Below, one piece after another: positions 11,992 through 20,453 of a stretch of 64,000 bases of DNA (the stretch's first letter is position 1; each line of letters begins with the position of its first letter). The notes below the pieces were generated by a model. It saw only the letters and a program-made list of their open reading frames with translations, had not been told where the DNA came from and ran no database searches. Source of the stretch: Candidatus Vondammii sp. HM_W22 (GTDB lineage Bacteria > Pseudomonadota > Gammaproteobacteria > Chromatiales > Chromatiaceae). The stretch lies in NCBI RefSeq assembly GCF_022530855.2, contig NZ_CP099567.1, positions 3,038,001-3,102,000 on the forward strand, read 5' to 3'. Both the position numbers and the translations under genes were made by a program.

Positions 11992-13124
11992 CTAGATGCA
12001 AAAGTGCCTGATCAACTGGCGCAGGATATTCACCATAGGCTCTATCCGTTCCAGACCAAGATATTCGTCGGGTTGGTGGGCCTGATCAATATCACCGGGT
12101 CCGAGAATAATGCTCTCCATACCCAGCTGCCTCAGGTAGGGTGCTTCGGTGCCGAAGGCTACGGATTCTGCGGTGTGATTTGTCAGTGCTTCACTGGTCT
12201 GTACGATCTCTGCAGTGGCCGGCGTCTCCATGGCTGGAATGCCAGGTCATCTCCAGCGCCAGACCCGTGCCCTTGAGCCTCTCCTCCAATCGCAGAGAGA
12301 GCTCTCCTCGTAGCTGCTCCAGTTCCATGCCGGGCAACGGGCGGATATCTATCTGCAGTTCGCATTCGGCGCAGATACGGTTGGGGTTGTCGCCGCCATG
12401 GATATGACCAAGATTCAGGGTGAGCACTTCTACCTCAAACAGCGGGTTCCGGTATTGTTCCTGAAGTTCACTCCTCCAGGTGAGGAGTTCACTGATAACC
12501 TGATGCATCCCTTCCAGAGCGCTGATCCCCAGTGCCGGATGCTGGAGTGCCCCGAACGGCCTTTCAGACGTATGGTCTCCATGGAGATGCCTTTGTGCAT
12601 TCGCACCGGGCGTAGTCCTGTAGGTTCCCCAATCAATGCATGCCGACCCATCCGACGGTTGGCGTCCACCAGTGATTGTGCGCCGCACATGGTGCTCTCT
12701 TCATCTGCTGTGGCGAGGAGGATAAGAGGGTGTTTCAGTTGCTTCAGGTCTACTCCACGAATCGCTTCGATAGCCAAAGCGAAAAACGCTTTCATGTCCG
12801 AGGTGCCCAATCCATAGATGCGATTATTCCGTTCAGTCAGTTTGAAGGGATCGGTTTTCCACTGATCGCCATCGAAAGGGACGGTATCGGTATGTCCCGA
12901 GAGAACTAGCCCCTCGGGGCCTGTACCGGCACTGGCGATCAGGTTGGATTTCCCGGGATTCCCGGCACAGGTAGGATCTCAACACGAAATCCCAGTGTTT
13001 CCAGCCAGCTGGAGAGGAGATCGATTACCGCTTTATTGGTTTGGTCCCAGTGAGGATTGATGCTGCTGACCGAAGGAGCTGCAATCAGCTGTTCGATCAT
13101 AGAGAGGAGTTTGGGTGTCGGCAT
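11992..13124 (-). pseudogene. argE: Acetylornithine deacetylase (M20A peptidase family), frameshifted
   Basis: Four consecutive minus-strand frames add up to one ArgE. 13124-12939 gives MPTPKLLSMIEQLIAAPSVS and VEILPVPG. 12810-12430 gives GTSDMKAFFALAIEA, ATADEESTMCGAQSLV (metal-binding acidic pair) and IGEPTGLRPVRMHKG. 12688-12191 gives LGISALEGMHQVI and LGHIHGGDNPNRICAECELQIDIRPLPGM. 12231-11992 gives the end, METPATAEIVQTSEALT, FGTEAPYL and GPGDIDQAHQPDEYL. Frame breaks fall near 12945, 12530 and 12240. Nearly all of the sequence is still readable, so the loss is recent. ArgE removes the acetyl group from N-acetylornithine in arginine synthesis; cells without it usually depend on ArgJ or on external arginine. 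Confidence 0.9.
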
Positions 13125-13916: not shown

Positions 13917-15291
13917 GAGTTATAGTCAAATCTGGTGTTTAGCCAGTTGAATCAAGCGGCGACCTGATCGACTCCTGCTACCTCAACACCCTCTTTAAAT
14001 TTGATTCCGGTTATCACCTTCGCCAGGTAATCGAAACCCCGTAATCGTCTCCACGCCTTCTCGGCACACAGGCCGAGTTTGAACATCATGTGTAGCATGC
14101 CATCACGCGATAGGCAGCCCTTGGAACGCTTGGTTCGATGGCGGATTGTCCCGAAGGTGGATTCAATCGGATTGCTGGTCCGAATACTCTGCCAATGCTG
14201 CGCAGGAAATTGATAGAAAGCCATCAGTTCCTCTCGGTCTTTGTGCAGACAGATGGCAGCCTTCGGATACTTTGGCTCATACGTTTTGATAAACAGATCA
14301 AAGGCCTTTTCCGCATCGGCCTGGGTCTCCGCCTGCCAGATGTTGTGCAGTGCCTGCTTCGCTTTCGGCTGAGCTGACCTTGGCAGGCAGTTCAGCACGT
14401 TCATGGTTTTGTGCATCCAGCAGCGCTGCTGGCGCGTCTCCGGATACACTTCCTCCAGCGCAGCCCAGAATCCCATGGCACCGTCACCGATCGCCAATTT
14501 TGGCGGGGTCAGTCCGCGTGACTTCAGTTTCAACAGCACCTCCCGCCAGCTCTGTGTGGACTCCCGTACACCATCCTCAATTGCCAGAAAATGCTTCTCA
14601 CCACGCTCATTCACGCCGATCACCACCAGGGCACACAGCTTCGTCTGCTCTGCTCTCTGTCCGCTGTAGACACCGTCTGCCCACCATACACCCAATGGCC
14701 CTTATCCAGGCGCTCCTCGCACCCGCTCCGATATTCTTCTGCCCAGACCTGCTTCAGACGCGATACCCTGCCCGCCGACAAGCCTGTTGCACCCGGAACC
14801 ACCAGCACTTTCAGGGCTTCACCCATCTCTCCACTGGAAATCCTCTTCAGGTAGAGCCACGGTAGTGCCGCTTCCAGTGACTTCGTCTTGCGTACATACG
14901 GCGGCACCAGAGCTGATCGGAACGTCACCGGCTCGCCGGTCTTCGCTCGTATTTTGGGGATCTTGACCGTGACCGGCCCCAATCCTCTCTGCAGTTTACG
15001 AGCTGGCAGGTGACCATTACGCACCACACCCGTCTTGCCATCCTCTGTCCGTCGCTCGACGTGCTCCGCCAACAGCTCCTCCACCGCCTAGTAGATCAAC
15101 TGCTCTGCACCGCTTCTCGGCAACTCTGTCAGCGGATCGATAATCGTATCTCGACCTGCCAGCTTAACTAACGTTATTCTTACTCATGGTGGCGTATCTC
15201 CAATGGTTGTTTTGATGTCTCGCAACAACAAATCAACCAGATACCCCGCTTTTTTTCAATTCCTTTCAAACAACACTTTCAGTTATAACTC
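13917..15291 (-). mobile_element. IS256-family element (type A), complete ends
   Basis: A 1375-bp element. The left end reads GAGTTATAGTCAAATCTGGT and the right end, in reverse complement, GAGTTATAACTGAAAGTGTT: imperfect inverted repeats of about 24 bp sharing GAGTTATA and a GTTT block. It is bounded by the 9-bp duplication CTAGTCATA. The transposase is read on the minus strand and is broken (see next entry). This copy defines the ends of the type-A subfamily also present at 2991 and, as a more diverged relative, at 34623-37212. Confidence 0.93.
13952..15189 (-). pseudogene. IS256-family transposase (type A), frameshifted
   Basis: Reads from the ATG near 15187 (MSKNN region). The frame is closed early by a TAG at about 15090, where the copy at 3095 has CAG. 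It reopens at 15084 as ELLAEHVERRTEDGK and runs to HWVYGG near 14695. There a base is missing compared with the first copy, and the rest is in another frame: GVYSGQRAEQTKLCALVVIGVNE, AIGDGAMGFWAALEEVYPETRQQRCWMHK, TSNPIESTFGTIRHRTKRSKG, ending GVDQVAA. The C-terminal 247 residues, with most of the DDE region, are undamaged. The lesions differ from those of the first copy, although both frame breaks fall just before the YSG-R-AEQ motif. Confidence 0.9.
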
Positions 15292-17444: not shown

Positions 17445-18113
17445 TTAAAGCGAACCCCAGGAGCTCTTGCTCCGCCGAACACGGAGGTGGGGGAGTATCA
17501 ACCCGAGCACGATGCCGCCAATAATCACCCCTGCTCCAATCAGGAACCAACGCTGATTGTTGTCATTGCTGAGCTCCCTGTTCTCCTGTTTTAGATCAGC
17601 CGTCTCACGGGTCAGCGAGGCCACCTGCTTCCGCAGGTCATTGCGTTCATTGGAGATACGCATGGCGTTGGAAGCGGTGCGGCGGATGCCCTGGAGTTCT
17701 TGTTCCAGGTTGAGTCTTACTTTTTGCAGATTTTTATGCTGTTTTGTCAGCTTCTTATGCTCTCCCTGGAGCTTAGCCAGTCTTGCGGTCAGCAGGCCGG
17801 GCTCCTGCTGCAACTCATCCAGTCTCTTTGCCGCCGCTGTCAGGCGTTCTCTGGCGCTTGGGACCGGCATGAGCTGGCGGGTGAGGACATATCCAGTTTT
17901 CCCACTGGGTATGCGTACATGAGAGTAGCCGGTTTCACGGTTACTGCTCAGGAGATCAAGTTCATAGCCGCTCGGCAGCATCCGCATGATCTTGTGGGTC
18001 GGGCTTTCACCGGATCTGAGTGTGACTTTGAACTGGTCGGTTACATAACGGGGCTCGGCATGCAGACAGGATAAGCTTGCCAACAGCACAATAGCTAATG
18101 CGACTCTTTTCAC
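17445..18113 (-). CDS. SH3-domain protein with coiled coil and C-terminal membrane anchor (TIGR04211-like)
   Basis: A 222-residue protein. A signal peptide (about 1-19, ending LHA) is followed by a bacterial SH3 domain (about 20-85: YVTDQFKVTLRSGES, LPSGYELDLL, SGKTGYVLTRQL). A long predicted coiled coil rich in Leu, Lys and Glu spans about 90-185. A single transmembrane segment (FLIGAGVIIGGIVLGLIL) follows, then a basic tail. This layout is that of the YgiM-like/TIGR04211 family, envelope proteins of unclear function. The gene is transcribed away from typA; their shared 525-bp spacer holds three DnaA boxes. The frame is complete. Confidence 0.85.
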   Translation of the reverse strand: MKRVALAIVLLASLSCLHAEPRYVTDQFKVTLRSGESPTHKIMRMLPSGYELDLLSSNRETGYSHVRIPSGKTGYVLTRQLMPVPSARERLTAAAKRLDELQQEPGLLTARLAKLQGEHKKLTKQHKNLQKVRLNLEQELQGIRRTASNAMRISNERNDLRKQVASLTRETADLKQENRELSNDNNQRWFLIGAGVIIGGIVLGLILPHLRVRRSKSSWGSL

Positions 18114-18221
18114 GCGGACCTCGGGGCTGGAAGATAGATATTGAGAGCATTCTTCCAGATAGTGGGCCTCCTGTTCAAGCTGAAGATCATAATTGCTGAT
18201 ATTTACCGTATTTACTTGGCG

Positions 18222-18419
18222 TTATGCACACACTGAATGGCTGCTATATCAATCGGCATGGTCTTGTCAATATTAACCTGCTGAAAAACTGGAAAATAAT
18301 TAACTTATTGAATCTAAAGAGTTAATTTAATTGTATGAAAAAACGACAATCCAAAGGCGGAGGCATGGTTCAGGGGGGCTGGGGTGGTTTTTCCAGCTTT
18401 TTCCACAAAGTTATCCACA
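18222..18419 (+). promoter_or_regulatory. Cluster of three consensus DnaA boxes
   Basis: TTATGCACA at 18222-18230, TTTTCCACA at 18399-18407 and TTATCCACA at 18411-18419 all fit TTWTNCACA and all point the same way. The last two start 12 bp apart, a spacing common for co-operating boxes. A fourth site with one mismatch (reverse of TGTGAGTAA, near 18425) follows. About 0.03 such matches would be expected by chance in 525 bp on both strands. This could be a DnaA-titration or DnaA-regulated site, or part of an origin; no dnaA, dnaN or mnmG is nearby to support an origin. Confidence 0.6.
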
Positions 18420-18593
18420 GAAGTTGTGAGTAACCTGATAAATGGCTTTTGTGACAAGTGGATGTCTGTTTAGTTACATAAATTACATGACTAATGGATG
18501 CTAACACATTGTTTCTTTCTGTCGGGTTTGATTCTCTTCGCCTCCTAAGGAAAACTATTTTCAATAGATAGATGCTTGCGCTGGTTTATTCGT

Positions 18594-18599
18594 TATAAT
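18594..18599 (+). promoter_or_regulatory. Likely -10 box for typA
   Basis: A perfect TATAAT 40 bp upstream of the typA ATG, in the context cgttataatgcgcgcc. No good -35 hexamer is found at 16-18 bp spacing; TTGCGC lies too close (12 bp). Confidence 0.35.
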
Positions 18600-18638
18600 G
18601 CGCGCCTTTCGTAAGATACCCTGGACCACTCTCCCGCA

Positions 18639-20453
18639 ATGAAGCAGCTACGTAATATCGCTATTATCGCCCATGTTGACCATGGCAAGACCACACTGGT
18701 GGATGAACTGCTCAAGCAGTCGGGAACCCTGGGAGAGCGCTTCGGCGAAGTCGAGCGGGTGATGGATTCCAATGATCAGGAGAGGGAGCGGGGCATAACC
18801 ATCCTCTCCAAGAATACCGCTATCAATTGGGGTGACTGCCGGTTCAATATCGTGGATACACCGGGACATGCTGATTTTGGTGGGGAGGTGGAGCGCGTGC
18901 TCTCCATGGTGGATTCGGTGCTGCTGTTGGTGGATGCCCAGGAAGGGCCCATGCCCCAGACCCGCTTTGTTACCCAAAAGGCGTTCAATCATGGTCTGCG
19001 CCCGATTGTGGTAGTAAACAAAATTGACAAACCCGGCGCCCGCACTGACTGGGCAATCGATCAGGTTTTTGAACTGTTTGACCGCTTGGGTGCCACGGAT
19101 GAGCAGCTCGACTTCCCTATTGTCTACGCCTCAGCCATCAACGGTTATTCCGGGCTGGAAGATGATGTGCGGGAGGGGGATATGACGCCTCTGTTCGAAG
19201 CGATTGTTAAGCACTGTCCGTCACCGGATGTCGACCCTGACGGTCCTTTCCAGATGCAGATATCGAATCTGGACTACAACAGCTATGTGGGTGCTATTGC
19301 CGTAGGTCGTATTACCCGTGGTACGGTAAAGCCGAATCAGCAGATTATCGTCTCCAAATACGACGGTGAGCAGCATAAGGCCAAGGTGTGTCTGGTTTAC
19401 GGTTATATGGGGCTTGAGCGTAATGAGGTGGCGCTAGCAAGGGCCGGTGACATTATTGCCATTACCGGTATAGAGACACCCAATGTATCAGATACCTTAT
19501 GTGACCCGGAGACGATTGAGGCGATGCCTCCGCTCAGTGTGGATGAGCCTACCGTCTCCATGACCTTCCAGGTCAACGCGTCCCCCTTTGCCGGCAGAGA
19601 GGGCAAATATCTGACCTCACGTCAACTCAAGGAGCGGCTGGAAAGGGAGCTGATCCACAACGTGGCCTTGCGGGTAGAGGAGGGTACGGATCCTGAGAAG
19701 TTTAAAGTTTCGGGGCGTGGTGAACTGCATCTCTCCGTATTGCTAGAATCGATGCGCCGGGAGGGCTTTGAAATGGCTGTATCCCGGCCTGAGGTCATTT
19801 TCCGGAAAGTTGATGGTGAGGTTTATGAACCTTACGAACAGCTCACAGTCGACGTGGAAGAGCAGCACCAAGGTGCTTTGATGGAGGCTTTAGGCGGCCG
19901 CAAAGGGGAGCTGAAAGATATGGTGCCGGATGGTGAGGGCCGGGTGCGTCTCGATTATATTATTCCCTCACGTGGCCTGATCGGTTTCCAGACAGAGTTT
20001 ATGACCACCACATCGGGAACCGGCTTGATGTATCACGTATTCGATCACTATGGCCCAGCTCAGCACGGTGGCATCGCACCCCGTAAAAATGGTGTGCTGA
20101 TATCCAATGGCCAGGGCAAGGTAGCCGGTTTTGCCCTGTTCAACCTGCAGGAGCGGGGCAAGATGTTCGCATCGCCTGGTGATGAGGTCTATGAAGGGCA
20201 GTTAGTGGGCATTCATGCCCGGGATAATGATCTTGTGGTCAATCCTTTGAAGGGTAAACAGCTGACCAACGTCCGTGCCTCCGGCAAGGATGATGCTATT
20301 GCGCTTACCCCGCCGGTGAAATTCTCCCTGGAGCAGGCTCTGGAGTTTATCGAAGAGGATGAGCTGGTGGAAATCACCCCTTCGGCGATCCGTATCCGCA
20401 AACGTTATCTGACAGAGATCGAACGTAAGCGGGCAGCGAGAGCGGCTATTTGA
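18639..20453 (+). CDS. typA: Ribosome-associated GTPase TypA/BipA
   Basis: A 604-residue translational GTPase of the EF-G/LepA class that binds the ribosome and is needed for growth at low temperature, ribosome assembly and stress adaptation. G1 is [15 protein letters not shown] (about residues 10-24), switch II is [14 protein letters not shown], and the NKID motif is [11 protein letters not shown]. The domains in order are GTPase (1-200), beta barrel (II), two EF-G-like domains, and the BipA-specific C-terminal domain ending [18 protein letters not shown]. Length and motifs are normal. The ATG lies 40 bp after a TATAAT box. Two hairpins follow the stop. Confidence 0.97.

Follow-up and report, generated by a model that had tools for sequence, protein, structure and literature searches.

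The stretch of DNA analysed here (64 kb; hereafter the window, G000:C1:3038001-3102000) belongs to a closed chromosome of 3,352,437 bp with dnaA as base 1, in an organism that its best typA matches place near Chromatiales symbionts and Thiodiazotropha/Sedimenticola-like bacteria. Within it, as the original prediction had it, a spacer separates two divergent genes, which we take, by eye, to be an SH3-domain-type protein gene and typA (Table 1). The three TTWTNCACA boxes expected on one strand of this spacer are all present on the forward strand, and window shuffles bear out the estimate of about 0.03 chance matches in 525 bases; across both strands of the window there are 8 matches compared with 3.61 expected (100 shuffles). 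The AT-rich tract described between the boxes lies between the first and second of them and holds an IHF-like site. The near-consensus box reported just after the third is also present but lies on the opposite strand, and this orientation is the key to identifying the element: the three closely spaced boxes form a core, TTTTCCACA-3 nt-TTATCCACA-5 nt-TGTGAGTAA, in which boxes III and I each differ from TTATNCACA at one position. A search of the window against Rfam and a plasmid search with the spacer sequence returned no matches, and a promoter and terminator scan gave no signal above shuffles.

Table 1 Features of the spacer and its flanking genes (window positions; distances are relative to box II unless stated otherwise)
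Feature	Position	Strand	Remark
SH3-domain-type protein gene	17445-18113	-	neighbour gene, divergent from typA
Distal DnaA box A, TTATGCACA	18222-18230	+	189 bp upstream of box II
IHF-like site, TAACTTATTGAAT	18301-18313	+	-110; 1 mismatch to TAAnnnnTTGATW; AT-rich DNA after
Weak Fis-like site	18333-18347	+	class-wide Fis position (-78); matches the consensus at only about 3 of its 6 specified positions
Core DnaA box III, TTTTCCACA	18399-18407	+
Core DnaA box II, TTATCCACA	18411-18419	+	starts after 3 nt from box III
Core DnaA box I, TTACTCACA (reads TGTGAGTAA on +)	18425-18433	-	inverted, 5 nt past box II
typA/bipA	18639-20453	+	neighbour gene, outside the element

The order III-3 nt-II-5 nt-I, box I being the inverted one, is that of the DARS (DnaA-reactivating sequence) sites, where E. 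coli restores its replication initiator DnaA to activity; DARS1 and DARS2 share the spacing of boxes I-III, and in both of them box I points the other way from II and III (PMC5742627, in excerpt). We compared the DARS1 (L273) and DARS2 (L274) regions of E. coli K-12, read in one direction. The DARS1 core is TAATACACA-3-TTATCCACA-5-AGTGGATAA and the DARS2 core is TTCTTCACA-3-CTATCCACA-5-GGTGAATAA, the latter at L274 3136-3170 as placed by enteric matches and by deletion primers in the accessible portion of PMC4585315. With DARS2 (mutH locus), the window element shares the order, orientation and spacers of the core boxes, an IHF site on the box-III side and a consensus DnaA box about 190-200 bp out on the same side. 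The registers differ, however: the IHF-like site is at -99 in DARS2 and at -110 here, and box V of DARS2 is inverted at -197, whereas box A is a same-strand box at -189. The class-wide Fis position (-78) falls between the IHF site and the core, whereas the essential FBS2-3 of E. coli DARS2 is placed near box V in the available text of PMC4245941 and PMC8682772. Taken together, the IHF site and the distal box make the element DARS2-like in outline, but in another register. The same excerpts state that DARS2 activity requires IHF and Fis binding (PMC4245941) and that box V restrains it (PMC8682772). With DARS1 (bioD-uvrB), the core geometry is identical, but the distal box of E. coli is a degenerate one and lies roughly two turns farther from the core; E. 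coli DARS1 is described as working in vitro without added factors (PMC5742627, in excerpt). The window element lies at neither bioD-uvrB nor mutH and, by locus, is an orthologue of neither DARS1 nor DARS2.

With up to three mismatches allowed, the whole genome holds two sites with the core geometry, no third core and no match to the reversed control. The second core lies upstream of priA (L276), with TTATGCACA 190 bp before its box II, and shares the distal box and the IHF position of the typA-side copy. The two copies agree at 27 of 35 core positions but at only 58 of 163 in the spacer, indicating that they are not recent copies, and we rejected a recent duplication of one element into the typA and priA loci.

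Conservation upstream of typA in relatives, which the original prediction proposed as a check, proved strong and of fixed layout. At the same threshold, the core occurs at least once in 43 of 55 relatives (control 0); typA itself was matched in 54 of the 55, the weaker matches being other translation GTPases. In the family typA upstream regions, box A mostly lies 188-192 bp before box II (180 in G031), box III 3 nt before it and inverted box I 5 nt after it. By hand count, the core is at typA in 19 of 30 family genomes read and absent upstream of typA in the other 11, two of which carry it elsewhere; typA loci from other groups have essentially no such boxes upstream. The gene ycgN (UPF0260) is a third recurrent family home of the core (L308, L310, L317, L320, L319, L326 and L301), some of these copies having no consensus box A. 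Two genomes hold more numerous core-like sites: six in G022, and eight in G029:C1 between 1.81 and 4.78 Mb, on the forward strand above 3.2 Mb and on the reverse strand near 1.8-2.2 Mb. Seven of the G029 sites have a distinct form, ending in GTGGATAA with a first box like TTACCCACA, an expanded or repeated DnaA-box element.

Across the class, we searched 369 sampled gammaproteobacteria for the composite of core and box A, allowing an A-to-II distance of 175-205 bp. It occurs in 173 of them, with no match to the reversed-pattern control; the other 196 genomes had no exact composite match. The dimensions of the composite are narrowly set. Of 150 rows taken from the matches listed, 142 have an A-to-II distance of 185-194 bp, with a peak at 189-191, and the II-to-I spacer is exactly 5 nt in 126 of 127 matches listed (hand count), where 0-24 nt were allowed. 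A phylum-wide draw gave matches in 20 of 137 genomes of the class and in 2 of 261 from outside it (counted by eye). Many of the A-to-II distances in the class members, again by eye, were 176-181; these are shorter by one helical turn, a sign suggestive of phasing. The core was present in 17 of 18 genomes reached via named loci. As a positive control, we ran this search on two enterics, Superficieibacter and Xenorhabdus, and it returned exactly the uvrB/bioD and mutH loci, that is, DARS1 and DARS2. PriA is encoded near the composite in 16 of 29 loci, mostly directly downstream (about 1.2 kb off in L333), and priA-linked cores were found in Xanthomonas nasturtii, Dokdonella, Rhodanobacter, Thiorhodococcus, Thiodiazotropha and a Solemya symbiont. 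Elements also reside at typA and ycgN and, as judged by eye, at aroE, hslO and further loci.

The elements had been picked by their DnaA boxes alone, IHF and Fis playing no part in the choice. Seventy elements, from loci of up to 11 kb that are not a random sample, were reduced to 68 by merging those at least 80% alike. A TAAnnnnTTGATW-type IHF-like site lies at -114 to -108 in 48 of the 68, compared with a shuffle mean of 0.5 and maximum of 3 (200 rounds), and is followed by AT-rich DNA across the elements. The Fis consensus GnnYAnnnnnTRnnC, with at most one mismatch, occurs at -80 to -76, also in 48 of the 68 (shuffle mean 4.5, maximum 10); the window copy fits it poorly and is absent from the matches of that scan. 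As in DARS2, the predicted IHF site sits between core and distal box, here in the place conserved across the class. The genome encodes IhfA and Fis, respectively 83% and 56% identical to their E. coli counterparts. Its DnaA is 63% identical to that of E. coli and keeps K178, R227, D269, R285 and L290. These are the ATP-binding, arginine-finger, sensor and AID residues tested, with roles described in part in PMC5742627.

On this evidence, we consider it likely that the spacer carries a DARS-type DnaA-regulating element, its activity being inferred from sequence and by analogy with E. coli. The boxes could in principle have come together by chance in a genome that holds 254 TTWTNCACA matches (100 with the pattern read backwards), but conservation in relatives, exact spacers and control searches without a match make the chance of this negligible. 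Scarcely more credible is a replication origin moved away from dnaA, one of the roles first suggested for the site, even though DnaA boxes and an AT-rich tract are both present. In the closed relative G004, GC skew switches at dnaA, at 2.81 Mb, from -0.034 (L242) to +0.024 (L243), and is positive on either side of typA, 504 kb away. In G001, also closed, dnaA is at 0.18 Mb and typA at 0.63 Mb, and the switch falls between dnaA and 0.33 Mb. Many relatives, moreover, retain DnaA boxes flanking dnaA, often as an inverted pair at its downstream end. With no skew switch at typA in these two genomes, we rejected oriC at the typA spacer and place the element, about 296 kb from dnaA, outside the origin. 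The skew of the genome itself is noisy (60 stretches, about 36% of the chromosome) and gives typA no support; KOPS counts gave no clear signal. The original prediction was to fall if a clear origin lay elsewhere and the boxes were not conserved: a skew inflection does lie elsewhere, but the boxes are strongly conserved.

That the boxes form a DnaA-controlled promoter region of typA, or of the divergent gene, is improbable. The element is intergenic and, in the 19 family genomes noted above, upstream of typA, and elsewhere it often precedes priA, so that transcription could feel it. Its internal spacing is fixed, however, whereas its distance to typA ranges from about 170 to 410 bp, and a TATAAT-like hexamer seen by eye close to typA is about 160 bp past the core. 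In G011 (L307), the element stands beside the SH3-type gene with typA on another contig, and in G030 (L316), about 3.9 kb and another ORF separate it from typA; elements at priA and ycgN further weaken the suggestion of a DnaA-regulated typA promoter. A variable place with a constant inner layout fits a chromosomal control site and not the promoter of one gene. Such a site might instead be datA-like, an IHF bend joining DnaA boxes so that DnaA-bound ATP is hydrolysed, or plain titration, with initiation lowered in either case; this we regard as unlikely, although less so than a promoter. datA, too, is a DnaA-box cluster with an IHF site away from the origin, and the available sections of PMC5742627 describe its layout with a single IBS and its promotion of ATP hydrolysis. 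The same-strand boxes about 190 bp apart around the IHF site resemble datA boxes 2 and 3 (L275 2745 and 2907), and the distance to dnaA is moderate. The box geometry differs, however: in datA, the second cluster pairs a forward box with an inverted one 3 nt away, whereas the inverted pair II-5-I, with box III 3 nt from II, makes up the DARS core, and geometry comparison did not find in the window element the layout that datA has about its single IHF site. When run on the two enterics, the unbiased core search likewise led to DARS loci and did not find datA. Of the DnaA-titration site first envisaged, a chromosomal locus that handles DnaA is supported, but its anatomy is that of a DARS and not of a simple titration cluster.

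The DARS-type reading has its observed basis in an exact and conserved box geometry, in IHF- and Fis-like sites that recur at fixed positions from element to element, in the priA copy, in the lack of a skew switch at typA in two closed relatives, and in the dnaA, ihfA and fis genes; protein binding, ADP release and a role in timing at the window element we infer by analogy. DnaA would bind in head-to-head orientation at core boxes II and I, next to which, on the side of II, lies box III. IHF would bend the AT-rich stretch that separates the core from distal box A, and a further protein, probably Fis, would bind between them. If the core acts as E. coli DARS2 does, ADP-DnaA bound there would release its ADP and leave as apo-DnaA, which would take up ATP, making initiation at the dnaA-linked oriC possible again.

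Whether the order box A, IHF, Fis and DARS core represents the ancestral gammaproteobacterial DARS we judge to be evenly balanced. In this proposal, a genome would usually carry one or two such elements, with priA a site of repeated residence; IHF and Fis would regulate them in a single, fixed helical register, and E. coli DARS1 would be a worn descendant minus its IHF site and distal box. In the DARS1 loci of Xenorhabdus and Superficieibacter (L363 and L364), an IHF-like site stands at -111, accompanied by TTATCCCCA at -213 and -208, and that of E. coli (L273, about 2130-2339) has a degenerate pair, IHF-like and TTATCCCCA-like, at -111 and -209. Few as they are, these three genomes hint that DARS1 descends from the class-wide layout as a worn copy, and suggest that it once had an IHF-dependent half.

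The details of DnaA reactivation are known from E. coli, and discussion of how far it is conserved has centred mostly on E. coli-like species. A 2009 study by Fujimitsu may list DARS-like sequences in many proteobacteria, and we take it to be the source of the more recent statement given next. DARS1- and DARS2-like sequences are conserved in many proteobacterial species according to the accessible part of PMC10380432, which cites earlier work; some of the spread described here may therefore already be in print. In Vibrio cholerae, DARS-like sequences are at the E. coli locations (PMC6090056, in excerpt), and the portion of PMC13220808 available adds nothing further on DARS distribution. Our literature search found no report of a DARS at priA or typA. 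The same layout in many gammaproteobacteria means that this means of controlling the cell cycle, familiar chiefly from E. coli and its relatives, may be both widespread and of ancient origin. With an exact signature that matches nearly half of the sampled gammaproteobacteria, such sites can be located in any genome, and it becomes possible to test whether recycling of ATP-DnaA is a general bacterial cell-cycle control and to ask why the sites settle beside priA or typA.

Two further observations concern the window outside the spacer. At 13952-15084, two overlapping ORFs resemble, by eye, a broken IS transposase, and a similar sequence lies about 2 kb before dnaA (L024 17500-18090), where there is also a second transposase-like stretch; the noisy skew of this genome may be due to IS traffic. 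On the reverse strand at 12191-12817, two overlapping frames look, again by eye, like one M20-type peptidase split by a frameshift, likely a pseudogene or a sequencing error.
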